A DNA stretch of 22,134 bases from a virus. The position numbers and the translations under genes are program-made. Under the pieces are notes generated by a model that saw only the letters and a list, made by a program, of their open reading frames with translations, did no database searches and was not told the origin of the DNA. The stretch's first letter is position 1; every line of letters begins with the position of its first letter. The stretch is from positions 1 to 22,134 of the IMG/VR virus record IMGVR_UViG_3300037070_003619; one strand, written 5' to 3'. Positions 7,914 through 21,599 of the stretch are shown here, in pieces.

Positions 7914-7914
7914 G

Positions 7915-9045: not shown

Positions 9046-9098
9046 CGCTCTCCTCCTTCGACAACAGTCCGCACAGTCGCACTCCGCCAAATATCGCC

Positions 9099-9478: not shown

Positions 9479-9491
9479 CCCAATCATCCTC

Positions 9492-9586: not shown

Positions 9587-9591
9587 AACCG

Positions 9592-9620
9592 AACGTATCC
9601 AACGGTCACAGACCTTGCAA
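9592..9620 (-). promoter_or_regulatory. Candidate leftward promoter
   Basis: On the minus strand TTGCAA (9620-9615), a 17-base spacer, then TACGTT (9597-9592). The -10 resembles those of the rightward promoters (TACGTA, TAGGTT). There is no CGTTACC dyad in the spacer, so if real it is regulated differently. It lies just before the structured leader of the leftward genes. Weak match, based on position and hexamers only. Confidence 0.35.
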
Positions 9621-10365: not shown

Positions 10366-10539
10366 ATGACGCAGCCGAAGGCCTCGACGCCGACGCTCAC
10401 CCTTGCCGCCCTCGACGCGCTGCTCACCCGGCTCGGCCCGGCGCCGAGGACGATCGCCGTGCCGCGCTGGAGGCTGGAGAGGCTGGAACGCGAGTTGAGG
10501 CGCATCGGCCGGCCCGAGCTGATCCCGAGGCGCTTGTGA
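10366..10539 (+). CDS. Small hypothetical protein (57 aa), first gene of the rightward arm
   Basis: ATG at 10366 (MTQPKASTPTLTLAALDALL), ending in a basic helix with ERLERELRRIGRPELIPRRL. The stop overlaps the next start as GTGA. No clear ribosome binding site is seen, so the start is the least certain part. The basic helical end suggests nucleic acid contact, but no family is recognised. Confidence 0.5.
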   Translation: MTQPKASTPTLTLAALDALLTRLGPAPRTIAVPRWRLERLERELRRIGRPELIPRRL

Positions 10540-11327
10540 CCGACCGCCATGAGCGGCCATTCCCGGACGAGCCGCGCCCCGAGCGGCCGAGAGTGACGCT
10601 CGAAAGCCTCGCCGCCGGGCGCCGGGAACGGCTGGCGAGAGAGGCCGAGGAGGCGAAAGCGCTCGCCGCGATCGCGCCGCCGGCACGGCCCGAGCTGTCG
10701 GATGAGGAGCGGCTTTCAATCCGGGCCGCCGTCGAGCGGCAGATGATCGCCCGGGCCGAGGAGACGGCCGCACGCTACGCCGCCACCGGGAACGACTACG
10801 ACCGCCGGGAACGCCTGCGGCGCCTGCGATCGCTGCCCTTGCCTCAACGCCGCGCCCTGCTGGCGATGTCCCTCGAAGGAATGGACCTCGACCGTGCCGC
10901 GCAGCTCGCCGGCATGGCGAAGGATCGGTGGACGCGAATGCTGATGTACCCGACAATCCGCCGGTTCCTCGCCGAGATGCAGCGCGAGATGGCGCCGGCC
11001 CGGGTGGCGCTGGCCCTCGGGGCGCTGACGAACGCGGCGACCGATCCGCTCGCCTCGCCGAAGGAGCGAGTGCAAGCGGCGAAGGAGCTGGCGAAGATCG
11101 GAGGCGGCGACCGAGCGCTGACGCTCCACCCGGTGCGCGAGGCCTCGACCGCCAACGTGCAAGTAAACGTCGGGGCGCTGCCGGCTGGGCCGGGCGAGGT
11201 GATCCGGGCGGCGCCCGGCATCGTGCTCGACCTCCGCCGGGAGAGTATGGACGCCCGGCACCTTGTCGAGGACGCCGTGACGATCGAGCCTGCGCTCGAC
11301 GTCCGGGACGCTCGCCGTGGACGATAG
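10536..11327 (+). CDS. Probable terminase small subunit (TerS)
   Basis: 263 aa from a GTG overlapping the previous stop. Residues 21-100 are charged and helical. The segment 102-150 contains LEGMDLDRAAQLAGMAKDRW, an HTH-like 'A..lAGma.dr...ml..p.irr.l' pattern as in small terminases that recognise pac/cos. A further helical part with SPKERVQAAKELAKIGGGDR (175-193) resembles the oligomerisation/linker region of such proteins; the C-terminal 60 residues look extended, as for a TerL-contacting tail. A longer in-frame opening upstream to 10083 translates to Arg-rich non-protein-like text and is discarded. It is divergent from TerL and 5.7 kb away, which is unusual, so another DNA-binding role remains possible. 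Confidence 0.5.
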   Translation: MTDRHERPFPDEPRPERPRVTLESLAAGRRERLAREAEEAKALAAIAPPARPELSDEERLSIRAAVERQMIARAEETAARYAATGNDYDRRERLRRLRSLPLPQRRALLAMSLEGMDLDRAAQLAGMAKDRWTRMLMYPTIRRFLAEMQREMAPARVALALGALTNAATDPLASPKERVQAAKELAKIGGGDRALTLHPVREASTANVQVNVGALPAGPGEVIRAAPGIVLDLRRESMDARHLVEDAVTIEPALDVRDARRGR

Positions 11328-11502
11328 CGCCCGCCGGCTGGCCGAGCTGCAACGGCGCATCGAAGCAGCGCGCGGCGACCTCGACCGGCACCTTCGGCCG
11401 ATGCGCGGAGAGGCCGAGCTTCCGCCCTACCGCCGGCAGACATGGGCCGAGCGCCTCGGCCGCGCCCTCCGGCATGTCACAAATCGCCCAGGTAGACGCT
11501 AG
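11317..11502 (+). CDS. Small hypothetical protein (61 aa)
   Basis: GTG start overlapping the end of the TerS-like gene by 11 bases. The product is charged and helical (DSARRLAELQRRIEAARGDL), then PPYRRQTWAERLGRALRH and a basic end. Probably a short coiled coil. Function unknown. It is the last gene before the first operator-type promoter. Confidence 0.6.
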   Translation: MDDSARRLAELQRRIEAARGDLDRHLRPMRGEAELPPYRRQTWAERLGRALRHVTNRPGRR

Positions 11503-11555
11503 CGCCTGGCATTGATGCCTCACACATCACACTGACGCGAAAGTCGAGCGCTAGC
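11498..11555. repeat. 8-bp inverted repeat at the end of the first rightward unit
   Basis: GCTAGCGC (11498-11505) and GCGCTAGC (11548-11555) are perfect inverted arms around the end of the 61 aa gene, with a small GGCA-ttga-TGCC hairpin inside. No U-run follows, so intrinsic termination is not supported. Confidence 0.4.
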
Positions 11556-11568
11556 AGGCACTTAGCCC

Positions 11569-11625
11569 TGCGGCGCCCTGTCGCAGCTAAACCCCCTTGA
11601 CGTTACCATGAGGTAACGCTAGGTT
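11569..11625 (+). promoter_or_regulatory. Rightward promoter/operator cassette 1
   Basis: -35 TTGACG (11597-11602), 17-base spacer, -10 TAGGTT (11620-11625). The spacer region holds a perfect dyad CGTTACC-ATGA-GGTAACG (11601-11618). An upstream dyad TGCGGC...GTCGCA (11569-11585) lies 11 bases before the -35. The next ATG is 36 bases after the -10. It shares this layout with four other sites in the right arm, so a common regulator is likely. Confidence 0.8.
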
Positions 11626-11661
11626 CATGGGCATGGGCAAGCCCGCCCACGGAGAACTGAG

Positions 11662-11901
11662 ATGCAGACCCAGACCCAGACCCAGACCTTCGCCGCCCTC
11701 TGGACCCAGACCACGGGCTTCAAGGCCTCCCCCGCGCTCCTCGCCGAGTTGCTCGCCAAGTACCCCGGGAGCACGGAAGCGGATTGGTGCCGGGCCTACG
11801 CCGCGGCTTGGATCGAGAAGCCCCAGACCTTCGAGGGCCGGATGGCTGCCGAGACGATCGCGGCGGTCGAAGACGAGATGGACCGGGCCTACGGCCTCTG
11901 A
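11662..11901 (+). CDS. Small hypothetical protein (79 aa) with N-terminal QT repeats
   Basis: First gene after promoter 1, with GGAG before the ATG. The N-terminus is (QT)4 from four exact CAGACC hexamers (11665-11688). The rest (PALLAELLAKYPGSTEADWC, then RAYAAAWIEKPQTFEGRMAA) is helical. No family recognised. Change in hexamer number would keep the frame and alter only the QT count. Confidence 0.75.
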   Translation: MQTQTQTQTFAALWTQTTGFKASPALLAELLAKYPGSTEADWCRAYAAAWIEKPQTFEGRMAAETIAAVEDEMDRAYGL

Positions 11902-11942
11902 GATGCCAGCGGGGCGCGGCCGGATGCCGCACCCTGCCCCAC

Positions 11943-11971
11943 TTGCGTTACCACACGGCAACGCCTATCCT
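11943..11971 (+). promoter_or_regulatory. Rightward promoter/operator cassette 2
   Basis: -35 TTGCGT (11943-11948), 17-base spacer, -10 TATCCT (11966-11971). Dyad CGTTACC-ACAC-GGCAACG (11946-11963), one mismatch from symmetry. A related GC dyad (CGCGGC...GCCGCA) lies upstream around 11915-11931. The next ATG is 27 bases after the -10. Weakest -35 of the set but best -10. Confidence 0.7.
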
Positions 11972-11998
11972 CACAGTGTAGCCCACGGAGAAGACCGA

Positions 11999-12157
11999 AT
12001 GCCCCTCACCCTCCTCGCGCTCGCCGCCCTCCTCGCGCCCGGCTGGCTCGCCTTCCTGAGCCTCGGGTTCGCCGGCTGGATCATCCTAGTGCTCTGGGCC
12101 GGCATCCTCCTCGCCCTCCCCCCGGCGCCCAAGGCGCCCAAGGGAGGCGCCCTCTGA
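11999..12157 (+). CDS. Small membrane protein (52 aa)
   Basis: ATG at 11999 with GGAG upstream. Residues 1-42 are almost entirely hydrophobic (MPLTLLALAALLAPGWLAFL, then SLGFAGWIILVLWAGILLAL), enough for two membrane spans or one signal-anchor plus a span, followed by a Pro/Lys-rich tail. Sits directly behind promoter 2 and overlaps the next gene by TGATG. Could act on the host membrane (superinfection exclusion, antiholin-like), which is inference. Confidence 0.75.
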   Translation: MPLTLLALAALLAPGWLAFLSLGFAGWIILVLWAGILLALPPAPKAPKGGAL

Positions 12158-12399
12158 TGGCCCGGAAGGTCAAGCCCCTCCCCGGTCAGCTCGGAATGTT
12201 CGGCCTCGCGCCCCTCCCCGAGAAGGCCTCCCAGCTCGGCCTCGGCCTCGAAGGTGGCGAGCTGCTCGGGGCGCCGCCGGCTAAGCGGCCGAAGGCGGCG
12301 CCCCCGGCGCCTCCCCCGATCGAGGCGGCGCTCGTCCACTACGAGACGCAGGCCGGCTTCGCCCCGCTTGCCCTCAGCTTCGCCCTCAAGTGCTTCTGA
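12157..12399 (+). CDS. Small hypothetical protein (80 aa) with possible sliding-clamp-binding motif
   Basis: Start overlaps the upstream stop (TGATG). The N-terminus has KPLPGQLGMFGLAP; QLGMFG resembles the QLxLF beta-clamp-binding motif. It continues Gly/Leu-rich with a Pro/Ala-rich linker (PPAPPPIEAAL) and ends ALSFALKCF. Largely disordered looking. Clamp binding is a guess from one short motif. Confidence 0.65.
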   Translation: MARKVKPLPGQLGMFGLAPLPEKASQLGLGLEGGELLGAPPAKRPKAAPPAPPPIEAALVHYETQAGFAPLALSFALKCF

Positions 12400-12422
12400 C
12401 CCCCAGCCCGAAAGGACACCCC

Positions 12423-12671
12423 ATGCAGCTCAACGCCTACGTCTACATCGCCGAGTGGGAGACTGCCGTCTCCGCCAAGTTCGGCTTCATGCCCGCCGGC
12501 AAGGCGGTCTTCGCCACCGCCTACGAGGCCAAGGCTTGGGCCGAGGCGCACGTCGGCAAGAGCGCCCCTTGGTGGATCGAGCGGGCGCCGGTCCTCACCG
12601 TCCCCGTCACCGGCCGGCGGCTCGCCGAGGCCGCCGAGGCCGGCGAGTACGCCTTCGCCCCGCAGCAGTAG
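12423..12671 (+). CDS. Small hypothetical protein (82 aa), strand-helix family
   Basis: ATG at 12423 behind AAAGGA. MQLNAYVYIAEWETAVSAKF begins the chain; the motif VFATAYEAKAWAEAHVG (about residues 29-45) matches the strand-helix pattern repeated in other right-arm proteins. No function recognised. Runs in one operon with its neighbours. Confidence 0.7.
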   Translation: MQLNAYVYIAEWETAVSAKFGFMPAGKAVFATAYEAKAWAEAHVGKSAPWWIERAPVLTVPVTGRRLAEAAEAGEYAFAPQQ

Positions 12672-12681
12672 GAGAACGCCC

Positions 12682-12960
12682 ATGCTCTTCGCCAAGGCCG
12701 GCCGCACGAAGTGGCCCAAGCCCAAGCTCTTCCACCTCCTGTCCGGTCGGTCCGGCTCCGTCACCTCGACGGGCGAGCGGATCACCGGCCGCTTCACCTT
12801 CCACCACGGCGTCTCCGAGGGCGCCGCGATCGGCAAGGGCGAGCTTCTGGAGATCGAGTTGACGCAGGCCGAGGCCGCCGAGATCGCCGAGTGGTTCGGC
12901 CCGATCGCCGGCCGGCGGGGCCTCTACGCCACCACCCGGCCGACCACCGCGCCCCGATAG
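12682..12960 (+). CDS. Small hypothetical protein (92 aa)
   Basis: ATG behind AGGAGAA, 10 bases after the previous stop. Basic N-terminus (MLFAKAGRTKWPKPKLFHLL), a central ERITGRFTFHHGVSEGAAIG segment, then an acidic helix ELTQAEAAEIAEWFGPI. Mixed alpha/beta, soluble. No family recognised. Confidence 0.72.
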   Translation: MLFAKAGRTKWPKPKLFHLLSGRSGSVTSTGERITGRFTFHHGVSEGAAIGKGELLEIELTQAEAAEIAEWFGPIAGRRGLYATTRPTTAPR

Positions 12961-12973
12961 GAGGGACCCCCGC

Positions 12974-13168
12974 ATGTTCTACGCAGGCCAGCGCATCATC
13001 GTCCGCGAGCCGGCGAGCTTCTACTACGGCCGAGAGGCCGAGGTGGAAGCGGCGCCCCCCGGCTACCTCAAGGTCTTCATTCCCAGCCTTGCCGGCGGTC
13101 GGATCGAGTTCGGCCTCCGGCCCCGGTTCGCCGAGCCGGTCGAGCGCACCCCCGCGTTCGCCAAGTAG
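12974..13168 (+). CDS. Small beta-rich hypothetical protein (64 aa), SH3/KOW-like appearance
   Basis: Strong AGGAGGG before the ATG. The text GQRIIVREPASFYYGREAEV then GYLKVFIP and RIEFGLRPRFAEPV alternates hydrophobic and charged residues as in a small beta barrel. Resemblance to KOW/SH3-type barrels is only by eye. Function unknown. Confidence 0.72.
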   Translation: MFYAGQRIIVREPASFYYGREAEVEAAPPGYLKVFIPSLAGGRIEFGLRPRFAEPVERTPAFAK

Positions 13169-13177
13169 GGAGAACCG

Positions 13178-13636
13178 ATGCCCCTCTACCCCGTCAAATA
13201 CGACACCGACCACCGGGTTTACTGCGGCCCGGCGGCGCTCGCCTCGATCACCGGCAAGCCCGTCTCGACGGTGCTCGCCGCCGTCCTGACGCTCCGGAAG
13301 GGCCGCACCGTGACGCCGAGCTGGGTTCGGACCACGAAGAAGCTGCCGAAGGCCCCGGTCGTCGGGATGACGAACTGGGAGGCGGTCGCCACGCTCAAGA
13401 AGCTCGGCTGGCGAGTGATCGAGCGGCAGGCCTTCGGCCGCGATCGGCCGACGCTCGCCGCCTTCGCCGGCAAGCTCTTGCCCGGCGTCTGGCTGGTCGG
13501 CGTGACCGACCACTTCGTCGCCGTCTCGGGCCGGACCTTCTGCGACACCAAGAGCCGCCAGCCCGTGCCGCTCCGCGATGCGCCCCAGCGGCGGAAGCTG
13601 GTCAACGTCGCGTGGCGACTGTGCAAGGGCAAGTGA
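13178..13636 (+). CDS. Papain-like cysteine hydrolase (C39/transglutaminase-like), putative
   Basis: 152 aa, ATG behind GGGAGAA. HRVYCGPAALASITG (Cys16 opening a helix), then a long alpha/beta middle, VTDHFVAVSG with His112 on a strand, and FCDTKS with Asp123. Cys at a helix start followed by His and Asp on strands is the papain/C39 triad order. Such small proteins recur in phage accessory regions; possible targets are host proteins or ubiquitin-like conjugates, but none can be named here. Triad identification is from motif order alone. Confidence 0.75.
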   Translation: MPLYPVKYDTDHRVYCGPAALASITGKPVSTVLAAVLTLRKGRTVTPSWVRTTKKLPKAPVVGMTNWEAVATLKKLGWRVIERQAFGRDRPTLAAFAGKLLPGVWLVGVTDHFVAVSGRTFCDTKSRQPVPLRDAPQRRKLVNVAWRLCKGK

Positions 13637-13643
13637 CCGAGGC

Positions 13644-13690
13644 CGGAGGCGCCCCGCGCGCCTCTCACCGCGGACACCCCCGCGAGGAGG
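13644..13690 (+). ncRNA. Tandem-hairpin element, copy 1 (cis-acting RNA candidate)
   Basis: Hairpin 1: GGAGGCGC with GCGCCTCT around a 5-base loop. Hairpin 2: CGCGG with CCGCG around ACACCC. A CACCG linker separates them and a GAGGAGGAG ribosome binding site follows, before the ATG at 13696. Two further copies lie at 18203 and 19843; the second stem differs in sequence but keeps pairing. Confidence 0.5.
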
Positions 13691-13695
13691 AGAGC

Positions 13696-13872
13696 ATGAA
13701 GAAACCCAACACCGGCCCCATGACCGTGATCCGGGGCGGCACGTTCGTCCGGCGCGTCACCCTTGACGAGCTGTTCGCCAACCCGGGCGGCTGGCTCGGG
13801 GCGCAGCGGCCGAAGGTCAAGGCCCGGCGCCAGAAGGCGGCGAAGGCTCCGCCGAAGGCCGCCGGCAAGTGA
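13696..13872 (+). CDS. Small basic hypothetical protein (58 aa)
   Basis: ATG behind GAGGAGGAG. Core TGPMTVIRGGTFVRRVTLDE and LFANPGGWLGAQRPKV, then a Lys/Ala-rich tail (KARRQKAAKAPPKAAGK) likely to bind nucleic acid or be disordered. Expression is probably influenced by the tandem hairpins just upstream. Unknown function. Confidence 0.72.
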   Translation: MKKPNTGPMTVIRGGTFVRRVTLDELFANPGGWLGAQRPKVKARRQKAAKAPPKAAGK

Positions 13873-14072
13873 CCACCTACGCCGTGACCGTCGCCGGCCA
13901 CCCGAAAGGCGAAGTCTTCCGGAGGCACCGCCGCTGGAAATGGTGGACGGCGGCGCGCGGGGTCGAGACCTACGGCCCCAACGCCACCCTCGCCGACGTC
14001 CGGGAGCACATCGCCCGGGTCTGCCTTGTCGACGGGAGCGCCGTCGAGCTGAAACCACAGGAGACAGGATGA
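13869..14072 (+). CDS. Small hypothetical protein (67 aa)
   Basis: GTG start overlapping the upstream stop (GTGA). TTYAVTVAGHPKGEVFRRHR, then WKWWTAARGVETYGPNATLA and DVREHIARVC; a strand, an aromatic-basic patch and a helix. Loosely like the other strand-helix proteins. Ends in an ATGA overlap. Function unknown. Confidence 0.68.
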   Translation: MTTYAVTVAGHPKGEVFRRHRRWKWWTAARGVETYGPNATLADVREHIARVCLVDGSAVELKPQETG

Positions 14073-14356
14073 ACGACATCGGCAAGACGCTTGGCCTCGC
14101 CCTCAAGGCGAAGGCCGAGCAGCGCGAACGCTGGGCGGCCGAGGCCGCGATCGAGGCGGCCCGGCGCCGGCTGGCCTACGGGGACCTTGTCCGCATGGCC
14201 TACACCGGCCGGCGGGTTCCCGGGTTCCCGTGGCTCGTCTGGAACTACACCGCCCGGCCCAACGAGCTGCTCGGCAAGTTCGCCGATCGCGACGCGGCCG
14301 AGGCTTTCATCCGCAAGCTCGACGTCGAGCGCGAGCGCAAGGAGGGCCGCATCTGA
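14069..14356 (+). CDS. Small hypothetical protein (95 aa), strand-helix family
   Basis: ATGA-overlap start. Long charged N-terminal helix (ALKAKAEQRERWAAEAAIEA), then VPGFPWLVWNYTARPNELLG and LGKFADRDAAEAFIRKL, the shared strand-helix motif. Ends with charged residues and a TGATG overlap. Function unknown. Confidence 0.72.
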   Translation: MNDIGKTLGLALKAKAEQRERWAAEAAIEAARRRLAYGDLVRMAYTGRRVPGFPWLVWNYTARPNELLGKFADRDAAEAFIRKLDVERERKEGRI

Positions 14357-14574
14357 TGGACCCCGTCCTGCACGCCATCCGGCACATGGAGTTCGCACAT
14401 CGCGGCGAGGCCTATTGGCTGCACGTCAAGACGACCGACGGGACGCTCCACGTCCTCGACGTCCGCCGCAGCGGCGGCGCCCCCGGCTACGTCCTGACCC
14501 CGTTCGACAACGCCGCCGAGCCCGTCTTCCTCAACCCGGCGCGGATCGTCAGCGTCGCCGTCAAGACCACGTAG
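14356..14574 (+). CDS. Small hypothetical protein (72 aa)
   Basis: TGATG-overlap start. MDPVLHAIRHMEFAHRGEAY, then WLHVKTTDGTLHVLDVRRSG, and the C-terminal half PVFLNPARIVSVAVKTT. Alternating hydrophobic pattern suggests a compact beta sheet protein. Last gene of the unit started at promoter 2. Function unknown. Confidence 0.7.
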   Translation: MDPVLHAIRHMEFAHRGEAYWLHVKTTDGTLHVLDVRRSGGAPGYVLTPFDNAAEPVFLNPARIVSVAVKTT

Positions 14575-14577
14575 GGG

Positions 14578-14634
14578 TGCGACCGCCTGTCGCGGCCAAC
14601 CCCCATTGACGTTACCCCTTGGCAACGCCATACT
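14578..14634 (+). promoter_or_regulatory. Rightward promoter/operator cassette 3
   Basis: -35 TTGACG (14606-14611), 17-base spacer, -10 CATACT (14629-14634). Dyad CGTTACC-CCTT-GGCAACG (14610-14627). Upstream dyad TGCGAC...GTCGCG (14578-14594), enclosed by GGGG and CCCC runs. Next chosen ATG 30 bases after the -10. Confidence 0.8.
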
Positions 14635-14664
14635 CTGAGCATGCCCACCGGAGAAGCCCACCGC

Positions 14665-14847
14665 ATGACGCCGAAGCCCTCCTACCTCATCGAGAGCGAG
14701 CGCCTGATGGGCGCCGAGCGGGGACGCCTCCGGGCGCTGCTCCGCAAGGCCGCAGCGCTGGCCGGCGAGATGGGCCTCCCCATCCGGGCCGAGATCGAGG
14801 AGCTGATCCTCACCGTCACCAAGAAGGAGCACGAATTTGCAGGTTAG
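14665..14847 (+). CDS. Small hypothetical helical protein (60 aa)
   Basis: Start at 14665 chosen because GGAGAAG precedes it; an upstream in-frame ATG at 14641 would lie at the expected transcript start. Mostly helical: SERLMGAERGRLRALLRKAA and MGLPIRAEIEELILTVTKKE. Possibly a small regulatory or adaptor protein; no family. Confidence 0.7.
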   Translation: MTPKPSYLIESERLMGAERGRLRALLRKAAALAGEMGLPIRAEIEELILTVTKKEHEFAG

Positions 14848-15064
14848 CAGCCACACATGGGGGATCGCCTACGCCGCGGGCGCCGAGCTTCGGGCGATCG
14901 TCCGACCGATCGCCGCGGCGCCGAGCCCCGACTGGGAGGTGATCCTCATCGGCCGGATGCAGGTCGCCCCGCGCTTCCCCACCCTGATCGCCGCGCAGTC
15001 CTACGCCCGCCGGGAGCTGGGCCTCGGCGCCCCGCGCCACGGCGAGCGCATCCGGATCATCTGA
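14837..15064 (+). CDS. Small hypothetical protein (75 aa), TTG start, strand-helix family
   Basis: The TTG at 14837 follows AAGGAG at eight bases and lies 11 bases inside the previous gene; no ATG offers a comparable site. VSSHTWGIAYAAGAELRAIV, then DWEVILIGRMQVAPRFPTLI and AAQSYARRELG with the shared motif. Function unknown. Confidence 0.68.
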   Translation: MQVSSHTWGIAYAAGAELRAIVRPIAAAPSPDWEVILIGRMQVAPRFPTLIAAQSYARRELGLGAPRHGERIRII

Positions 15065-15264
15065 TGCGCGCCGGCCGCACCCCGAACATCGCCGAGGCCC
15101 GGCTATTCCCGAGCCGCGGCGCCGCGGTCGCATTCATACGGCGCCTCAAAGAGCGGAGCGGCGAGCACCGCTTCATCGCCGAGCTGCCGAACGGCACCGC
15201 GATCGTCTTCCACCCCGCCGGCTGCAAGAGCGGCCGGACCTACCTCGCGAAGGAGAAGGCATGA
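15064..15264 (+). CDS. Small hypothetical protein (66 aa), strand-helix family
   Basis: TGATG-overlap start. EARLFPSRGAAVAFIRRLKE carries the shared strand-helix motif; HRFIAELPNGTAIVFHPAGC forms a beta-like second half and the end is basic. Function unknown. Confidence 0.68.
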   Translation: MRAGRTPNIAEARLFPSRGAAVAFIRRLKERSGEHRFIAELPNGTAIVFHPAGCKSGRTYLAKEKA

Positions 15265-15374
15265 ACCTCGAACGCGCATCCCTCACCGACCGGCTGGCTG
15301 CCGGCGTCGCCCGCACCCGGGCGGACCGGGTTGACCGGATGCTGGAGGGCCTCCGCGGCGCGGCGCGGAGGTGA
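15261..15374 (+). CDS. Very small hypothetical protein (37 aa)
   Basis: ATG at 15261 overlaps the previous stop (ATGA) and its own stop overlaps the next start (GTGA). MNLERASLTDRLAAGVARTR, then ADRVDRMLEGLRGAARR: a single amphipathic helix. Its size is unusual, but the exact overlaps at both ends continue the operon pattern. Confidence 0.5.
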   Translation: MNLERASLTDRLAAGVARTRADRVDRMLEGLRGAARR

Positions 15375-15475
15375 ACGCCCTCCTGCTCGGCATGCCCGAG
15401 CTGGCCTCGATCATCTACCAGACCCGGAAGGCCGCGATCCGCGGCGCCTTCGGCCCTGCCGGCGGAGAGAGGTGA
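15371..15475 (+). CDS. Very small hypothetical protein (34 aa)
   Basis: GTG at 15371 overlaps the previous stop and the stop overlaps the next ATG (TGATG). MNALLLGMPELASIIYQTRK, then AAIRGAFGPAGGER. Possibly a short helix with a hydrophobic face. Real mainly on overlap evidence. Confidence 0.45.
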   Translation: MNALLLGMPELASIIYQTRKAAIRGAFGPAGGER

Positions 15476-15708
15476 TGGCAATGATCATGAGCCGCCTGCC
15501 GGGCGGCAAGCGGAACTCGAAGCACGCGATCGGCCCACTCGCCTCGATCATCGTCGGCGAGCGCGCCGGCTACGGGCTGACGCTCGTCATCAAGGACGGG
15601 AGCGACCGGAACTTCTCGGTCTACCTCGACCGGGAGGACGCGAAGGCGATCGCCGAGACGCTCTTCGACGGCGTCCCGAGGAGCCGGGAGAGAGGAGCAG
15701 GATGGTGA
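15475..15708 (+). CDS. Small hypothetical protein (77 aa), strand-helix family
   Basis: TGATG-overlap start. MAMIMSRLPGGKRNSKHAIG, then PLASIIVGERAGYGLTLVIK, and FSVYLDREDAKAIAETLFDG, the shared motif preceded by two strands. Ends inside the next gene by 7 bases. Function unknown. Confidence 0.72.
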   Translation: MAMIMSRLPGGKRNSKHAIGPLASIIVGERAGYGLTLVIKDGSDRNFSVYLDREDAKAIAETLFDGVPRSRERGAGW

Positions 15709-16175
15709 CGATGAACCTTCGCGAGTGCCTCCAGCAGTACGCCAACGGCTGGGAGAAGATGGGACACCCCCGGTTCGCCACGATGGAGCGCTTCGTCCTG
15801 AAGCACGGCGTCGAGGGCCGGGCGCGCAAGCCCGGCCGGCGGAAGGGCAAGCTGAAGGAATGCTTCAAGAACTCGACGGTCGCCGCCTTCAAGGGAGGCC
15901 TCCGCTACGTCGAGGGCTACGCGCTGAAGCCCGGCCTGATCCCGGTTCACCACGCTTGGAACCTCGACGAGGAGGGCCGCGTGATTGACCTCACTTGGCG
16001 CGACAACCTCGCCGCCGAGTACCTCGGCATCGAGATTGACACCGTCACCCTCACCCGCACCGCCTGCCGCACCGGCTACTTCGGAATGTTCGCCCCGGGC
16101 GACATGGTCAACATCGAGTTCCTGAAGCAGCTCGATCCCGAGCTGTTCGCAACCCTCTGGAAGGAGGCCGCATGA
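15702..16175 (+). CDS. Conserved-type phage protein with Cys-His-Asp triad (transglutaminase/papain-like?)
   Basis: 157 aa. KECFKNSTVAAF holds Cys54 at a helix start. Next is LRYVEGYALKPGLIPVHHAW, with His84 on a strand and Trp86 after it, then GRVIDLTW with Asp96 and a YLGIEI segment. The 'CF.N...lrYVEGYa......HaW..d..grViD.TW..yLGi' pattern recurs in uncharacterised phage and bacterial proteins and has the residue order of a transglutaminase-like triad. Start chosen at the first ATG, which overlaps the previous gene; a further ATG at 15711 is possible. Enzymatic role is inferred only. Confidence 0.8.
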   Translation: MVTMNLRECLQQYANGWEKMGHPRFATMERFVLKHGVEGRARKPGRRKGKLKECFKNSTVAAFKGGLRYVEGYALKPGLIPVHHAWNLDEEGRVIDLTWRDNLAAEYLGIEIDTVTLTRTACRTGYFGMFAPGDMVNIEFLKQLDPELFATLWKEAA

Positions 16176-16513
16176 TGGAAGGCCCTGACGTCACCTACAC
16201 CCGGACGATCCCGTTCACCCAGTTCCTCCGGCCCTTCGGCCACCGGACGCCCGTGACGATCGACCGGCCGGACGCGGTCGTCGACAAGGCGGAGAAGATC
16301 ATCGCCGCCGGGTTCTGGTTCGAGATCGAGGAGCTGCGCGAGGGAACCGTCCACATGACGGTCTCCGGCAACGTCCCCGACGTCGGCGAGTGCGACGTCG
16401 TCTCCGAGCTGTGCCCGAACGGCCCCGGCGTCCCCGAGACGGTCGACCGGCTGGTCGAGCGGGCCTTCGCCAAGGTCGTCGAGGGCGGCGGCGGGTTCGT
16501 GGTGCTGCCATGA
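16172..16513 (+). CDS. Hypothetical protein (113 aa)
   Basis: ATGA-overlap start. YTRTIPFTQFLRPFGHRTPV, then DKAEKIIAAGFWFEIEELRE, EGTVHMTVSGNV (strand) and CDVVSELCPNGPGVPETVDR, a helix-rich end with VERAFAKVVEGG. Compact alpha/beta protein; the 'pF..fLrPdGr....v' opening is common in small phage proteins of unknown role. Confidence 0.74.
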   Translation: MMEGPDVTYTRTIPFTQFLRPFGHRTPVTIDRPDAVVDKAEKIIAAGFWFEIEELREGTVHMTVSGNVPDVGECDVVSELCPNGPGVPETVDRLVERAFAKVVEGGGGFVVLP

Positions 16514-16767
16514 GCCGCTCGCCCTTCGGCTGGGACCTTCCGCCGGGCTGCACGCAACGGCACATCGACGAGGCCTTCGGCGACGGCGGAGGCGTCACGG
16601 ACCTTGAGGAGAAGGTGCTCGGCCTGCTCGAAGCGGCCGGCATCCCCGAGGCCATCTGCGACCAAATCCTCACCCTGATCATGGCCGGCGAGGCCGCGAT
16701 CGCCCCCCCCGAGAAGGAGCACGACGATGAGCAGCATGTGGGTTATCGCGTCGACCTCGACGACTGA
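16510..16767 (+). CDS. Small acidic hypothetical protein (85 aa)
   Basis: ATGA-overlap start. SRSPFGWDLPPGCTQRHIDE begins it ('PpGct..dId...g' is frequent in small phage proteins), then an acidic helical middle LEEKVLGLLEAAGIPEAICD and an acidic C-terminus. The last 41 bases overlap the next gene. Function unknown. Confidence 0.7.
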   Translation: MSRSPFGWDLPPGCTQRHIDEAFGDGGGVTDLEEKVLGLLEAAGIPEAICDQILTLIMAGEAAIAPPEKEHDDEQHVGYRVDLDD

Positions 16768-17023
16768 CTGGGACGGCCGAAACCCGGTGAAGGTCTACCC
16801 CATCTTCCTGCTGCGGCCCGAGAGCCGCACCCGGGCTTGGTGGGCGAGGGACACCTTCTTCGCCAGCAAGTACCCGACGCGGGAAGACGCCGAGGCCGCG
16901 CTGGCGCTGCTCGACCTCAATCGCGACTACGTCACGAGCTTTGTCGTCCCCGCCGGCACCGACGACGAGGTGCTGGCATCCATCGACGCGGGCCGCGCGG
17001 CGGCCAGAAAGGAGAAGGCATGA
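16727..17023 (+). CDS. Small hypothetical protein (98 aa), strand-helix family
   Basis: ATG behind AAGGAG; starts within the previous gene. MSSMWVIASTSTTDWDGRNP, then TFFASKYPTREDAEAALALL (the shared motif) and a C-terminal helical stretch. ATGA overlap with the next gene. Function unknown. Confidence 0.7.
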   Translation: MSSMWVIASTSTTDWDGRNPVKVYPIFLLRPESRTRAWWARDTFFASKYPTREDAEAALALLDLNRDYVTSFVVPAGTDDEVLASIDAGRAAARKEKA

Positions 17024-17355
17024 AGAAACCCCGGTGGGGGCTGAGCTTCCACCTTGAGCAGGAGACCAAGCCCGAGACGTGGCGGTACTTCGAGACCTAC
17101 GTCACCCGGGCGAAGGCGGTCGCCGCCGGCCGCAAGATCGTGACGGGCCGCTGGCGCGTCGTCGAGGTGGCGAGCCGGATCATCTGGGTTCACGAGCCCG
17201 AGCGCCGCAAGGCCCCGCTCCCGACCGAGCTGACGGGCAAGCAGAAGACCACCTTGAAGCAGATCGCCGCGCGGGCCGAGACGGCCGAGGCGATCCGCGC
17301 CGACAAGGTCGAGACCGCCCGCCAGTACGCCCGCACCGTGATGCGGAGGAAGTGA
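17020..17355 (+). CDS. Hypothetical basic protein (111 aa), strand-helix family
   Basis: ATGA-overlap start. WGLSFHLEQETKPETWRYFE, then TYVTRAKAVAAGRKIVTGRW (strand-helix motif followed by strand) and a long basic helical tail (ARAETAEAIRADKVETARQY). Might bind nucleic acid. Function unknown. Confidence 0.7.
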   Translation: MKKPRWGLSFHLEQETKPETWRYFETYVTRAKAVAAGRKIVTGRWRVVEVASRIIWVHEPERRKAPLPTELTGKQKTTLKQIAARAETAEAIRADKVETARQYARTVMRRK

Positions 17356-17723
17356 TGCGCGACCTGACACTGTTGAACTCACTTCGCCGCCCGGACCTCG
17401 AACTCGCCCTGTACGGCGAGCCGGGCGGCCCCGCCGACGGCATCTTCCGACTGCCGCACCCCTCGACCGGCGTCGTCCTGCACGTCATCGCGTCGAGCGG
17501 CTACGACTGGGATCATGTCTCGGTCAGCCTGCTCAATCGCTGCCCGAACTGGCAGGAGATGGAGCACGCGGCACGGATGTTCTTCCGCGACGACGAGACG
17601 GCGATGCAGCTTCATATCCCGGCCGTCGAGCACATCGACTGCCACCCCTACTGCCTGCACTGGTGGCGCCCGCAGGCCGAGCCGATCCCGCGCCCGCCGG
17701 GCTGGATGGTCGGCCCGAAGTAA
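17355..17723 (+). CDS. Conserved phage protein of unknown function (DUF7694-like)
   Basis: 122 aa, TGATG-overlap start. YDWDHVSVSLLNRCPNWQEM, then FFRDDETAMQLHIPAVEHID and CHPYCLHWWRPQ match a pattern known from many phages: 'W.HvSvS...RcP.W.eM...k..Ff.dde...q.hp....yv..Hp.cLHlWrP'. No biochemical role is established to my knowledge. The conserved His, Cys and Trp could bind metal or nucleotide. Last gene before promoter 4. Confidence 0.8.
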   Translation: MRDLTLLNSLRRPDLELALYGEPGGPADGIFRLPHPSTGVVLHVIASSGYDWDHVSVSLLNRCPNWQEMEHAARMFFRDDETAMQLHIPAVEHIDCHPYCLHWWRPQAEPIPRPPGWMVGPK

Positions 17724-17729
17724 CGGAGG

Positions 17730-17785
17730 TGCGGCGCCCTGCCGCATCTCGCCCGCTTGACGTTACCGTCCGGTAACGCTACGTA
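17730..17785 (+). promoter_or_regulatory. Rightward promoter/operator cassette 4
   Basis: -35 TTGACG (17757-17762), 17-base spacer, -10 TACGTA (17780-17785). Perfect dyad CGTTACC-GTCC-GGTAACG (17761-17778). Upstream dyad TGCGGC...GCCGCA (17730-17746), nearly identical to that of cassette 1. Next ATG 24 bases after the -10. Confidence 0.82.
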
Positions 17786-17809
17786 AGAGGAGCAACAGAA
17801 GGAGAGCGC

Positions 17810-18196
17810 ATGAAGCCCAACGAAAATTCCGCCCGATACGAGAGCCTGCTCTCGATCGCCCTCACGAGCGCCTTCGCCGCCTCGAAGAAGCTGGAACGGG
17901 AGATGGTCTACGACCGCGGCGCCTGCGGGTTCGCATGGGTCAAGATCGACGGCACCGAGCCCCTCGCCCGCTACTGCCGGGCGGAGCTGAAGCGCCTCGC
18001 CAAGGACCCCGAGAGCGGCTCCGCCTACCAGAAGGGCCTCCGCTACGGCGACAAGGGCGAGCCGGGCTGGATGTGGTGGGACCCGGGCCGGAGCAACTGG
18101 CAGAACATCGACGTGAAAGAGGCCGGCGCCAAGGCCTTCCGCGACGTCCTCGGAGCCTACGGCATCCGGGCCGACGCCGGCAGCCGGTTGGATTGA
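17810..18196 (+). CDS. Hypothetical protein (128 aa)
   Basis: ATG behind AAGGAGAG. ESLLSIALTSAFAASKKLER, then FAWVKIDGTEPLARYCRAEL, a basic helical middle, YGDKGEPGWMWWDPGRSNWQ and a helical end. 'gcaWV.i.g....arycr......G..yekG' occurs in several uncharacterised phage proteins. Immediately downstream are the tandem hairpins. Function unknown. Confidence 0.78.
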   Translation: MKPNENSARYESLLSIALTSAFAASKKLEREMVYDRGACGFAWVKIDGTEPLARYCRAELKRLAKDPESGSAYQKGLRYGDKGEPGWMWWDPGRSNWQNIDVKEAGAKAFRDVLGAYGIRADAGSRLD

Positions 18197-18202
18197 TCGG
18201 CC

Positions 18203-18246
18203 GGGGAGGCGCCACGGCGCCTCCCACACCGAGCAATCCGCTCGAT
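18203..18246 (+). ncRNA. Tandem-hairpin element, copy 2 (cis-acting RNA candidate)
   Basis: Hairpin 1: 9-bp stem GGGAGGCGC/GCGCCTCCC with loop CACG. Linker ACAC. Hairpin 2: CGAGC/GCTCG with loop AATCC. The next gene's ATG is at 18261 with GGGGAGA between. No U-run. Confidence 0.6.
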
Positions 18247-18260
18247 GGGGAGACCAAGTA

Positions 18261-18464
18261 ATGAAGCTCTGCTTCTGCGGTTCTGGCAAGGAACGCTACC
18301 AGCTCGTCGACGCGGCCGGCATCTTCTGCGCCTACGTGTGTGAGGCGTGCGAGGCCAAGAAGCGCCGGACATACAACCCGATCATCTTCGAGAGCGGCAC
18401 CGTCTACTCGGCGACCGGAGAGGAGGAAGACATCTACATCGACGACGACCGGAGGGAAGCATGA
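18261..18464 (+). CDS. Small zinc-ribbon-like protein (67 aa)
   Basis: ATG behind GGGGAGA. MKLCFCGSGKERYQLVDAAG holds Cys4 and Cys6, and CAYVCEACEAKK adds three or four Cys, enough for a C4 zinc site; the second half is acidic (GEEEDIYIDDD). May contact nucleic acid or a host protein. Follows hairpin copy 2. ATGA overlap with the next gene. Confidence 0.75.
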   Translation: MKLCFCGSGKERYQLVDAAGIFCAYVCEACEAKKRRTYNPIIFESGTVYSATGEEEDIYIDDDRREA

Positions 18465-18748
18465 TCATCGTTCGCTACCTCGCCGTCGACGGCTACCGCC
18501 AGACGCGCACCTTCAAGACCTTGGCCGGCGCCCGGGCCTACGCCCAGAAGTGGGTCGGCAAATTCCCCGAGCTTGGCAGCGACTACGCCGTCAGCTTCGA
18601 CGGCATCGGCACCATCCGGGTCGCGGGCGGCGCCACCCTCCGCGAGCTGTTCCCGGAGGAGCCGCTCCCCGAGCCCGATCCCCACGACACATGGGCGGCC
18701 GAGCAGGCCCGTCTCGACGCCCTCGACGAGGAGAAATACCCATGGTGA
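18461..18748 (+). CDS. Small hypothetical protein (95 aa), strand-helix family
   Basis: ATGA-overlap start. IIVRYLAVDGYRQTRTFKTL then AGARAYAQKWVGK is the clearest example of the shared motif. A second part DYAVSFDGIGTIRVAGGATL is beta-like; the C-terminus is acidic. Function unknown. Confidence 0.74.
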   Translation: MIIVRYLAVDGYRQTRTFKTLAGARAYAQKWVGKFPELGSDYAVSFDGIGTIRVAGGATLRELFPEEPLPEPDPHDTWAAEQARLDALDEEKYPW

Positions 18749-19131
18749 ACTTCAAGGCCCCGATCATCTACGACGACGAAGGGGAGGCGATCGAGCTGCC
18801 CTTCCGGATCGCCCTCTGCCCCGAGTGCGGAGGCCGCGGCACGACCACCCGGCACATCGAGCCGGACGGCGGCGGGTTCACCGCCAGCGAGTGGGCCGAG
18901 GCCTGCGGCGACGACGACGAGTTCGCCGACAACTACTTCAGCGGGCGCTACGACCGCCCGTGCGACGAGTGCGACGGCGCCGGCAGGATCGCCGAGCCGG
19001 ACGAGCGGCAGATGAGCCCCACGCTGCGGAAGCTCTACCGCGAAGACGCCGAGATGATGCGCGAGCTGCGGGCCGAGGAGCGGGCCGAGCGTGAGGCCGA
19101 GGAGGGCTGGGCGCGGAGGTTCGGCTACTGA
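18742..19131 (+). CDS. DnaJ-type zinc-finger phage protein (129 aa)
   Basis: ATG at 18742 behind GAGGAGAA. Two CxxCxGxG-like knuckles, CPECGGRG (about residue 28) and CDECDGAG (about 75), should build one C4 zinc site. Between them GGFTASEWAEACGDDDEFAD then NYFSGRYDRP is the insertion typical of this phage family ('fta.d.aed.dF...Y..G.yd..C..C.G...'). The C-terminal third is an acidic/basic helix. Role unknown; the zinc fold may bind nucleic acid or unfolded protein. Confidence 0.8.
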   Translation: MVNFKAPIIYDDEGEAIELPFRIALCPECGGRGTTTRHIEPDGGGFTASEWAEACGDDDEFADNYFSGRYDRPCDECDGAGRIAEPDERQMSPTLRKLYREDAEMMRELRAEERAEREAEEGWARRFGY

Positions 19132-19132
19132 C

Positions 19133-19170
19133 TTGACGTTACCCCTTGGCAACACTACGTAAGTGTTGCC
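19133..19170 (+). promoter_or_regulatory. Rightward promoter/operator cassette 5 with an extra palindrome
   Basis: -35 TTGACG (19133-19138), 17-base spacer, -10 TACGTA (19156-19161), dyad CGTTACC-CCTT-GGCAACA (19137-19154). A second perfect dyad, arms GGCAACACT (19148-19156) and AGTGTTGCC (19162-19170) around ACGTA, covers the -10. The upstream GC dyad of the other cassettes is absent because the preceding gene runs up to the -35. Confidence 0.8.
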
Positions 19171-19192
19171 ACCACAGAGGAGACCCTACCGA

Positions 19193-19450
19193 ATGCCCAT
19201 CACACAGACAGCCGGCGGCGGGATGACCTTCGACGGTCCGGCCGCGGTCAACGTCTACCGGATGACCGTGATCGCCTCGGCCCTCCGGCTCTACGCCAAG
19301 ACCGGGATGAAGGTGAACGCCGCCTACACCCCGAAGGCGATGATGGCGACCGCCGCGGCGCTCACCGGGCAGAAGTTCAAGGCTCGGGACTACCTCGGCG
19401 CCGCCGACGCCCTCACCGCCGCGGCGAGGGCCGCGGCACCCACCGCCTGA
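19193..19450 (+). CDS. Conserved-type small phage protein (85 aa)
   Basis: ATG behind GAGGAGA, 31 bases after the -10 of promoter 5. MTFDGPAAVNVYRMTVIASA, then LRLYAKTGMKVNAAYTPKAM and TGQKFKARDYLGAADALTA. The 'gpdAv...r...l..aL.lyakTGmk..r..tp..ml..at..TGkkykr..y..Aa.dl' pattern is common in phages with no known role. Compact helical bundle likely. Confidence 0.8.
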   Translation: MPITQTAGGGMTFDGPAAVNVYRMTVIASALRLYAKTGMKVNAAYTPKAMMATAAALTGQKFKARDYLGAADALTAAARAAAPTA

Positions 19451-19461
19451 GAGGAGGCGCC

Positions 19462-19833
19462 ATGACCTACAACGGATGGACAAACCGCGCGACTTGGAAC
19501 GTGAACCTCTGGGTCGACAACACCGAGCGGACCTACCTCGCTCGCCTCGACGCCTTCCGCCGGCAGAAGCCCACCGCCGCGACGGCCGAGGCCTTCGCCC
19601 GGCAGATGTTCCCGAACGGGACCCCCGACATAAGGGGCTTCGCCGCGGTCAACTGGGCCGAGCTGGCCGAGAGCTGGGGCGAAGACACCGGCCCCGAGCT
19701 GCCCCGGACGATCGGCCCGGGCTGGTCGGACGATCCGGTCGAGAAGGCCGCGCAGATCGCCGAGCAGGAGCGCATCGTCTCGGAAGTCGCCGAGATCGCC
19801 GAGCAGCTCGGGGACCCCGCGCTCGACGGATAG
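19462..19833 (+). CDS. Conserved phage protein of unknown function (DUF7249-like)
   Basis: 123 aa, ATG behind GAGGAGG. NGWTNRATWNVNLWVDNTER is the hallmark 'NGW.NraTWNvnLWl.Nde' block found in many phage, plasmid and prophage small proteins. RGFAAVNWAELAESWGED and a helical acidic C-terminus follow. Role unknown. Second gene of the promoter-5 unit; hairpin copy 3 follows it. Confidence 0.83.
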   Translation: MTYNGWTNRATWNVNLWVDNTERTYLARLDAFRRQKPTAATAEAFARQMFPNGTPDIRGFAAVNWAELAESWGEDTGPELPRTIGPGWSDDPVEKAAQIAEQERIVSEVAEIAEQLGDPALDG

Positions 19834-19842
19834 CACGACCGG

Positions 19843-19885
19843 GGAGGGCGAGCCCCTCCCACACCGTGCAATCCCGCACGACCGA
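19843..19885 (+). ncRNA. Tandem-hairpin element, copy 3 (cis-acting RNA candidate)
   Basis: Hairpin 1: GGGAGGG/CCCTCCC around CGAGC. Linker ACAC. Hairpin 2: CGTGC/GCACG around AATCCC. Compared with copy 2 the linker and loop are nearly identical while the central stem pair changes from A-T to T-A. The ATG of the next gene is at 19894. Confidence 0.6.
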
Positions 19886-19893
19886 GAGGAGAA

Positions 19894-20103
19894 ATGAAAC
19901 TCAAGCGCCCCGTCACTCTGACGCTATGGGGGGCGACCTTCACCGTTCCCGCGGGGACCGCCTGCACCCTGATCAAGGGCGCGAGCGGAACCGAGGGCGA
20001 CCTCTACGCCGTCACCAGCGTGGCTCTTCTGATCCGGCTGAGCGGCAACGGGTTCGATCCGCACTACCACTACGCCTTCGTCCCCACCGACGCGGTCGGC
20101 TAG
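19894..20103 (+). CDS. Small beta-rich hypothetical protein (69 aa)
   Basis: ATG behind GAGAGGAG. LKRPVTLTLWGATFTVPAGT, then ACTLIKGASGTEGDLYAVTS and DPHYHYAFVPTDAV. Alternating strands suggest a small barrel; 'vp.Gt.v..i.g..g.....yav' is frequent in phage proteins of unknown role. Its leader carries tandem-hairpin copy 3. Confidence 0.75.
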   Translation: MKLKRPVTLTLWGATFTVPAGTACTLIKGASGTEGDLYAVTSVALLIRLSGNGFDPHYHYAFVPTDAVG

Positions 20104-20123
20104 ACCCCCGCAGGAGAAACCGC

Positions 20124-20462
20124 ATGATTTCGTGCATCCGAACCGGCTACCAAGCCTATCTCGTCCAGTACGACGAGCTGATCATCGGCGACGCCTTCGA
20201 GAGCGCCGGCACCCTGATCCTTCGCGTGAACGCCCGGTGCTACGACGGCCTCGGGGCGCGGACGCGGCCCTTCCGGACCCGCGTGCAGTTCGAGGTTGAG
20301 AAGATCGGCCAGTGGTTCGACCGCCGCGACGCCGGGGAGCGGCAGAGTTCCACCCTGCTCGCCGAGCCCGGCGATTGGAGGATGCTCGGCGACTATGACG
20401 GCGTCGACTTCGAGGAGTACGCCCGGGAGGTGCGGGCGAGGTGGCGAGCCGAGGCCGGTTGA
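20124..20462 (+). CDS. Hypothetical protein (112 aa)
   Basis: ATG behind AGGAGAA. MISCIRTGYQAYLVQYDELI, then LILRVNARCYDGLGARTRPF and VQFEVEKIGQWFDRRDAGER: mixed alpha/beta with a charged C-terminal helix. No family recognised. A 26-base gap separates it from the HTH gene. Confidence 0.74.
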   Translation: MISCIRTGYQAYLVQYDELIIGDAFESAGTLILRVNARCYDGLGARTRPFRTRVQFEVEKIGQWFDRRDAGERQSSTLLAEPGDWRMLGDYDGVDFEEYAREVRARWRAEAG

Positions 20463-20488: not shown

Positions 20489-20728
20489 ATGCGCGTTATG
20501 ACAGGAAAAGACCTCAAGGCGGCTCGGCTGCGGCTGAGCCTCTCCAACTCGCAGCTCGCCGCCCTGATCGGCATGCGGCCCGTGACCGTGCGGCGCATGG
20601 AGATGGACCCGTCGAACGCCGGCCACCGGACCATCAATCCACAGGTCCGCCGGCTCGTGAAGGCGTACCTCTCCGGCTATCGGCCGCCGGACTGGCCCGA
20701 CCAGCCCTTCTACGAAAAGGCCGCATGA
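20489..20728 (+). CDS. Small XRE-type helix-turn-helix protein (79 aa)
   Basis: GKDLKAARLRLSLSNSQLAA then LIGMRPVTVRRMEMD (about residues 6-40) is a Cro/CI-like HTH: helix, 'sqLAaliGm....vrRmE'. An in-frame second Met at residue 5 is an alternative start. The C-terminus (VRRLVKAYLSGYRPPDWP) resembles small phage/plasmid regulators of this group. It is a prime candidate to bind the CGTTACC dyads of the five rightward promoters. ATGA overlap with the next gene. Confidence 0.8.
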   Translation: MRVMTGKDLKAARLRLSLSNSQLAALIGMRPVTVRRMEMDPSNAGHRTINPQVRRLVKAYLSGYRPPDWPDQPFYEKAA

Positions 20729-21213
20729 CCGGGCGACCGCGATCATCGTGCCCGTCCGCCGCAGCGATCCGCAAGCGGGCGAGCCGTGATCGCGTTCGCC
20801 GGCATCGGGAGCGGAAGGCGGAGGAAAACCGTCGCTACCGGCTCCGGAAAAAAGTTCGTGACCTCTGTCGAGGGGACTGGCGCTCCGCGCAAGCCTCTGA
20901 CTTCACGCCGGGAATACCCCCGGACGTGGACAAACCCGTGACAAAGACCTTTGTGAAGCGCGTCCGCCGGTACGGCGACCTTGTGTCCGCCTGCCGGCGA
21001 AGGCGCGAGGCCCTCGGGATGACGCAAGCTCAACTCGACGAGGCCGCGGAGCTGACGCCCGGCTACACCTCGCACGTCGAGGGCCGCGGCAAGAACGTCC
21101 GCTCGCTCGGTGCGCGCTCCTTGCCCGCGTACCTCGAAGCGCTGGGGCTGGAGATGCTGATCGTCGCCTCGGGCGACGGCAAGGTGCTGACGACCGAAGG
21201 AGCACGCCGATGA
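20725..21213 (+). CDS. HTH regulator with long basic N-terminus (162 aa)
   Basis: ATGA-overlap start. Residues 1-50 are very basic (AIRKRASRDRVRRHRERKAE, then RYRLRKKVRD), probably a DNA/RNA-contacting extension. Residues 86-145 form an XRE-like HTH: LVSACRRRREALGMTQAQLD, EAAELTPGYTSHVEG, then SLGARSLPAYLEALGLEMLI. The 'lGm..tLpayLeALGl.l' end is typical of one-domain repressors that dimerise. Co-transcribed with the other HTH protein, so both may act together. Operator not known. Confidence 0.76.
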   Translation: MTGRPRSSCPSAAAIRKRASRDRVRRHRERKAEENRRYRLRKKVRDLCRGDWRSAQASDFTPGIPPDVDKPVTKTFVKRVRRYGDLVSACRRRREALGMTQAQLDEAAELTPGYTSHVEGRGKNVRSLGARSLPAYLEALGLEMLIVASGDGKVLTTEGARR

Positions 21214-21599
21214 GCCGCTTGGGCCGCCTGATGAAGCGCAAGGAGCCGCCGCTGCGGCTGGTGCTGGCGCCCGAGCTGGAGAAGCACTCGCAAGACCTTT
21301 TCCGGGCGATGGACATGGGGCTGAAGATGGGGGCGACCGCCCGGGACCCGTCCGGGACGATCGTCACGACCGCCGCCATCAAGGCGTGCGCGATGCTCGC
21401 CGCCATGTACGCTTCCCTCAATGCGATCTGCGAGACGGAGGAGGGCCGGGAGCGCGTCAAGACCGCGTTCGCCAACACATTCGACGAGCACGTCGTCGCC
21501 TTCGTCGAGGGCCGCAAGGCGGTCCGGGCCGCGCCGGCTACACTTCCGGCATCTCCAACGGCGCCGACGACCGAGCCGGATTGTGAGCAGCCCGCATAG
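21210..21599 (+). CDS. Hypothetical helical protein (129 aa), last gene of the rightward arm
   Basis: ATGA-overlap start. A basic N-terminus (SRLGRLMKRKEPPLRLVLAP), then a helical core with ELEKHSQDLFRAMDMGLKMG and AAIKACAMLAAMYASLNAIC; the tail after about residue 105 is Ala/Pro/Thr-rich. That tail overlaps the end of the opposing helicase gene by 62 bases, so its composition may be constrained. Function unknown. Confidence 0.72.
   Translation: MSRLGRLMKRKEPPLRLVLAPELEKHSQDLFRAMDMGLKMGATARDPSGTIVTTAAIKACAMLAAMYASLNAICETEEGRERVKTAFANTFDEHVVAFVEGRKAVRAAPATLPASPTAPTTEPDCEQPA

Follow-up and report, generated by a model that had tools for sequence, protein, structure and literature searches.

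On balance, we read the smaller of two helix-turn-helix (HTH) proteins encoded in this viral DNA, HTH1, as a small autorepressor of the Aca (anti-CRISPR-associated) type, acting as a dimer, that reads a family of GTTACC dyads and thereby controls a regulon of five early operons. The link between HTH1 and the dyads, which we hold to be somewhat favoured, comes from the behaviour of the HTH1 family, the predicted fold and the position of the gene in its operon, and not from a shared operator sequence.

Five promoters carry the same embedded dyad

The window, by which we mean the whole stretch of DNA analysed, is an entire virus contig of 22,134 bases that is classed as linear; this class often denotes a fragment, and the contig is probably incomplete. 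Structural genes, among them a portal gene (PF12236, E 6e-25) and the terminase large subunit, lie on its minus-strand half. The plus strand from ~11.6 to 21.6 kb holds a series of small ORFs; at the right end, part of a primase/helicase gene (phrog_239, E 5e-14) reaches into the contig on the minus strand. Neither Rfam nor a tRNA scan matched anything in the window.

The operator family described in the initial annotation is well above chance, with CGTTACC present 8 times against 1.09 expected, a count reached in none of 100 shuffles. Five 18-bp dyads of the form GTTACC-N4-GG[T/C]AAC, all on the plus strand, each lie within a promoter spacer. The -35 and -10 elements are 17 bp apart in all five promoters, the -35 being TTGACG (TTGCGT in P2); the first ORF begins 25–37 nt past each -10, and each promoter precedes a series of small genes.

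11597–11625, plus strand: promoter P1, TTGACG-N17-TAGGTT, with its dyad at 11601–11618
11943–11971, plus strand: promoter P2, TTGCGT-N17-TATCCT, with its dyad at 11946–11963
14606–14634, plus strand: promoter P3, TTGACG-N17-CATACT, with its dyad at 14610–14627
17757–17785, plus strand: promoter P4, TTGACG-N17-TACGTA, with its dyad at 17761–17778
19133–19170, plus strand: promoter P5 of the HTH operon, TTGACG-N17-TACGTA, with its dyad at 19137–19154 and a palindrome at 19148–19170

Since TTGAC occurs only 16 times on the plus strand, it is not credible that four dyads abut it by chance. P5 has a third half-site (19165–19170), which creates a second perfect palindrome, GGCAACAC-N7-GTGTTGCC, across its -10. 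The right arm reads GGTAAC in P1 and P4 and GGCAAC in P2, P3 and P5; such single-arm changes break RNA pairing but keep a readable half-site, and the dyads therefore look like DNA half-sites.

Among 82 viral stretches that carry the exact dyad, a scan found no second promoter-embedded case, and among the sequences searched the GTTACC operator is so far private to this contig. Matches to TTGACGTTACC-N4-GGYAAC in four contigs were set aside: the sites resemble chance, and no convincing HTH1 or HTH2 match accompanies them.

Two overlapping HTH genes lie downstream of the most elaborate operator

The two HTH ORFs that the initial annotation had placed at 20489–21213 were confirmed there, downstream of the promoter whose operator, with its third half-site and second palindrome, is indeed the most elaborate. 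P5 and HTH1 are 1.36 kb apart, with four genes between them.

19193–20462, plus strand: four small ORFs between P5 and HTH1, from the ORF list and family scans (singly 19193–19450; 19462–19833, DUF7249; 19894–20103; 20124–20462)
20489–20728, plus strand: HTH1, 79 aa, HTH_3, C-terminal GYRPPDWP; proposed Aca-like autorepressor
20725–21213, plus strand: HTH2, 162 aa, long basic N-terminal helix and XRE-type HTH; proposed accessory DNA-binding protein
21210–21599, plus strand: third ORF, 129 aa, likely co-transcribed with HTH1 and HTH2; no family found

HTH1 overlaps HTH2, and HTH2 the third ORF, through ATGA (start-to-stop), so that co-transcription of all three, previously suggested for the HTH pair, is likely. 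The description of the pair as one small protein and one with a long basic extension also holds. HTH1 matches HTH_3 at E 1.5e-5, which passes the Pfam cut-off, and the PHROGs family phrog_14076, a 'transcriptional regulator', at E 1.2e-18; an alternative start at 20498 agrees with most relatives and may be the start used. In HTH2 the HTH spans residues ~86–154 and matches HTH_31 at E 2.6e-4, under the Pfam cut-off. The structural model of HTH2 (pLDDT 74 overall) places the basic N-terminal helix at residues 12–48; its confidence is high only for part of this helix and for the HTH.

No other HTH was found in the 28 distinct window frames scanned with Pfam or the 31 scanned with NCBIfam, in keeping with the earlier view of the pair as the only recognisable HTH regulators apart from a TerS-like protein. 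The TerS-like frame (10509–11327) gave a weak Sigma70_r4_2 match (E 0.037). Scans with Pfam, PHROGs and NCBIfam matched no known toxin family among the neighbours of HTH1 and HTH2, where a type II antitoxin (HigA/MqsA/HipB-like) would have its toxin gene, though a toxin of a new kind may be present. The 28 scanned frames of the partial contig held no restriction-modification genes, to which a controller (C) protein would be linked.

Promoter-embedded repeats are enriched upstream of HTH1-type genes

Alignment-driven scans yielded an HTH1 family of 70 members, mostly from phages, which form 47 clusters at 80% identity; the 70 comprise 31 viral loci, 7 bacterial loci, 29 new loci of the 36 from a second viral scan, plus Pkon1, V18 and the window itself. 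Annotated phages, searched first, gave relatives in Paracoccus phage Pkon1, in Ruegeria phages (as a tandem pair) and in Rhizobium phage 16-3, and the seven bacterial-genome loci include Stappia, Paracoccus and Roseicyclus. L099 is the closest by sequence (49%) among the viral loci first found. The C-terminal motif GYRPxDWP marks the family, with G63, P66 and W69 invariant in an alignment of 46 sequences. In bacterial genomes HTH1 is rare: phrog_14076 at E ≤1e-13 matched 1 of 385 genomes in a single class and, in a single family, 3 of 394 (both counts include the centre genomes), and a laxer cut-off, with matches in 9 of 14 control genomes, was unspecific.

A promoter-embedded dyad lies upstream of the HTH1-type gene in 13 of 47 clusters, compared with 15 of 1354 random positions (Fisher p 3e-13), when scored, within 700 bp upstream, as a dyad with 5/6 pairs or more in a promoter rated 9/12 or higher, thresholds that were set only after the first examples had been seen. 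Under a stricter 6/6 pairs the figures are 8 of 47 clusters and 12 of 1334 random positions, and among promoter-like sites only they are 13/27 against 25/265 elsewhere (p 2e-6). The window does not drive this enrichment, because it is among the 47 clusters but does not score. The other 34 clusters are without such a promoter, and the scored matches in L160, L123 and L155 resemble chance.

The HTH1-operon promoters of Pkon1 and L100 carry TAGCGCC-N3-GGCGCTA, and L150, L163 (in two promoters), L171, L172, L167, L139, L104, L107 and L128 have sequences of their own at the same promoter place. The usual order is promoter, one or two small ORFs, then HTH1. In the group resembling phage 16-3, 11 of 18 loci have 6-N4-6 dyads directly upstream of the gene, in most loci two, ~33 bp apart, and otherwise one; the nearer usually sits between -35 and -10. 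Half-sites are TAG[C/T]GA in the three relatives whose recognition helix carries RATQ and of the TAA[T/G]GA type in eight others, a covariation that may be partly due to common descent.

A search for recurrent dyads across all HTH1 loci gave mostly noise in GC-rich DNA, save for the window, L127 and a few tandem pairs. L127 was not counted as support, its eight copies or near variants of TTAGTGTGACACTAA (4316–19224) lying mostly outside promoters, where they form a possible operator or stoperator family. L099 was likewise rejected as an example of the same promoter type: its six intercistronic dyads sit between stop codon and ribosome site, with no -35 or -10. These dyads (1784–3353; AGTGCC-N5-GGCACG, some GAGCC-N5-GGCTC) occur among small ORFs, show compensatory arm changes and are probably RNA hairpins.

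The predicted fold of HTH1 resembles Aca proteins

The AlphaFold2 model of HTH1 has four helices (pLDDT 91.9). With Foldseek, the best TM among the matches listed belongs to Aca1 (7c0g, 0.72/0.79), and no match falls below E 0.001. VIA-align gave Z scores of 9.9 for 2ox6 (a Shewanella protein), 9.6 for Aca1, 9.5 for Aca2, 9.2 for HigA2, 8.8 for Aca10, 8.8 for MqsA and 6.3 for P22 c2, where rows within 1 Z are tied and a common fold shows no function; Aca1, Aca2 and Aca10 are all in the top ten by Z. A search of viral structures returned mostly generic XRE proteins. Compared with the PDB, the HTH1 family profile matched Aca3 (E 1.4e-6) second after a designed protein, and Aca2 at 2e-3, through the HTH core, while Aca1 aligns to the family over only 26 columns of the HTH.

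The features of Aca systems found at HTH1 are thus the predicted fold, the downstream place in an operon of small genes and the inverted repeat in the core promoter of P5. In acr-aca operons the inverted repeat always lies inside the core promoter, according to the accessible part of PMC9410906, and the operon layout given there matches the small ORFs between promoter and HTH1 in the relatives. Repeats in the core promoter are also described for the Aca2, Aca3 and Aca10 systems (PMC9410906 and PMC9410881, as far as accessible). HTH1 is tied to Aca2 and Aca10 by fold and to Aca3 by its family profile; unlike all three, the HTH1 family has its own C-terminal motif. A further 36 Aca families have been reported (PMC9765179, accessible part).

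Aca1, like HTH1, is a small HTH protein of the same fold (matched over 66 residues in VIA-align), encoded after a small gene in an operon whose promoter holds an inverted repeat, and the operator of L104 has 16 nt in common with the published Aca1 site (AGGCACAATGTGCCTA). In contrast, HTH1 has no convincing full-length homology to Aca1 and no known acr beside it, the operator sequence differs, and Aca1 has one promoter where the window has five. Known anti-CRISPR families (NCBIfam) had no match in 43 proteins (31 from the window, 12 from relatives), Acr diversity being too great for this to exclude one.

Other candidate readers of the dyads

The strongest alternative, which we regard as unlikely, is that the missing half of the genome encodes a CI- or LexA-like repressor which reads the dyads, and that HTH1 reads another site. 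The linear, probably partial contig leaves room for such a gene outside, and Mwe-JY08 (L098, PP395640.1), the nearest structural relative (TerL 45%, portal 41%), has a LexA-like gene and no HTH1 relative. Furthermore, the window operator differs from the HTH1-family type: half-sites in the relatives mostly start with TA, their dyads are centred 15–16.5 nt from the -35 start and the right arm lies over the -10, whereas the window dyad is centred at 12.5 nt (11.5 in P2) and has no outer TA. The separation of P5 from HTH1 exceeds that in the scored relatives; no repeat of the family type was found directly upstream of 20489, nor any convincing TA-ended dyad upstream of HTH1. However, Mwe-JY08 has neither the GTTACC dyad (best site, 3 mismatches) nor recurrent promoter dyads, and the most elaborate operator belongs to the operon that carries HTH1, as expected under autoregulation.

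It is improbable that HTH2, alone or together with HTH1, reads the dyads, its basic helix adding affinity. Its co-transcription with HTH1, the modelled basic helix and the presence of relatives of both proteins in L099 speak for this reading. HTH2 relatives were found in Mwe-JY08, L099 and six further viral loci; several have a basic terminal extension, and besides the window only L099 among these also carries an HTH1 relative. Against an HTH2 reader, none of five distinct HTH2-only loci (seven loci: L098 and L178–L183) has a recurrent dyad family in promoter spacers; the near-identical L181–L183 have one single perfect promoter dyad, ~1.7 kb from HTH2. The most likely role of HTH2 is accessory DNA binding, not reading of the dyads. 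The earlier proposal that the co-transcribed HTH proteins read the operator family is therefore plausible for HTH1, from the promoter repeats of its family and the match of its predicted fold to autorepressors that bind such repeats, and weak for HTH2.

The initial annotation also suggested that the two proteins form a Cro/CI-like pair setting a lysis-lysogeny or immunity switch. Both proteins are XRE-type, a fold family that HTH1 shares with Cro and CI of lambda, 434 and P22, and the operators of those phages are similar in length to the window dyads; temperate phages are also among the hosts of HTH1 relatives. Even so, this reading fails and is highly improbable, because the genes are oriented wrongly for it, CI features are missing and relatives have their CI/Cro, C or LexA-like genes elsewhere. 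The two genes overlap on the plus strand, with no divergent genes sharing operators between them, and P22 c2 has a lower fold score than the Aca proteins. Pfam, PHROGs and NCBIfam show no S24 or CI-type C-terminal domain in HTH1 or HTH2, and no integrase was found in the window; some CI-like repressors also lack S24, according to the accessible part of PMC6536676. HTH1 relatives occur in named temperate phages with no immunity role: in Pkon1 the relative, p71, is beside a holin and an amidase, apart from the annotated CI/Cro pair p23/p24 (same source). The relative in Rhizobium phage 16-3 is p099, upstream of a polymerase/primase gene, and the C repressor is p067 (PMC10460002, accessible part). 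In the literature searched, which covered few subscription journals, no paper on p099 was found. Similarly, the HTH2 relative in Mwe-JY08 is apart from its separate LexA-like gene.

Least probable of all is that the dyads have nothing to do with the HTH proteins and act as RNA hairpins or as sites of a host regulator: the compensatory changes in L099 mean that a relative has hairpins, but an A-C mismatch breaks pairing in three of the five window dyads, and all five hold a near-fixed place between -35 and -10.

A possible single burst of early expression

If HTH1 is the Aca-like autorepressor of these promoters, we infer dimer binding, the identity of the reader, a burst-then-repress timing and a function for the small genes as follows. 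Infecting DNA brings no repressor, so P1 to P5 would all fire at once on DNA entry and the small early genes would be expressed. HTH1, encoded two genes before the end of the P5 operon, would then build up, and its dimer is predicted to bind the GTTACC-N4-GGTAAC dyads, which cover the spacer and the -35 edge at every promoter. Bound HTH1 would close all five promoters, its own included, and the third half-site at P5 may tune autoregulation.

This mechanism is proposed by analogy with the Aca proteins and two further systems. In the archaeal virus SIRV2, a conserved regulatory sequence precedes 11 of 13 early genes, which one Aca, Aca8, is thought to shut off (PMC11065993, accessible part); unlike HTH1, Aca8 acts at archaeal promoters and belongs to another protein family. 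Regp576 of plasmid p576 acts as a repressor at its own promoter and at others, which limits the establishment genes to a transient burst after DNA entry, as the accessible portion of PMC8708921 describes. It differs from HTH1 in being a ribbon-helix-helix protein, in its repeated-motif operators flanking the promoter and in belonging to a plasmid, not a phage.

That a bacterial-phage Aca-type repressor serves as the early-phase master off-switch, closing five operons by itself after a single burst, is a tentative proposal that we consider possible. Aca-type repression is already known, and what is apparently new is an Aca-like autorepressor with an enlarged regulon; in the literature searched, which covered few subscription journals, no paper was found that describes one Aca regulating several operons of a bacterial phage. 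If HTH1 reads all five promoters, the early small-gene region would be switched as one regulon, and the operator sequence would be a handle on anti-defence genes that have no homologues. As a master off-switch site, the dyad would mark about two dozen small, mostly unannotated anti-defence and host-takeover genes that could be listed from sequence, for which Aca8 motifs in archaeal viruses are a precedent. The 70-member family with its own core-promoter repeats also offers a data set on how recognition helix and operator change together.

Further features of the contig and its relatives

Short GC-rich hairpins, located by eye and approximately, lie just upstream of P1, P3 and P4 (11570–11590, 14578–14596 and 17724–17746), with apparent compensatory change between copies; the hairpin in front of P2 is a different one, and P5 has none that is evident. 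The record of Mwe-JY08 labels it a Microcystis phage, yet its GC content is 66%, an indication that its host may not be the cyanobacterium. In L104, a promoter with the AGGCACAATGTGCCTA repeat (309–344) is followed by two small ORFs and then the HTH1 relative; a small acidic ORF there, similar to one in L167, is a candidate anti-defence gene.

Three other genes of the window gave informative matches.

4830–6071, minus strand: sulfatase (PF00884, E 4e-29), inside the run of phage structural genes and adjoining the terminase gene
7213–7707, minus strand: frame in a minus-strand operon with an Acb2/Tad1 hairpin domain (PF24729, E 1.2e-18), by that domain an anti-CBASS or anti-Thoeris type protein
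18742–19131, plus strand: last gene before P5, with weak DnaJ zinc-finger and anti-TRAP matches
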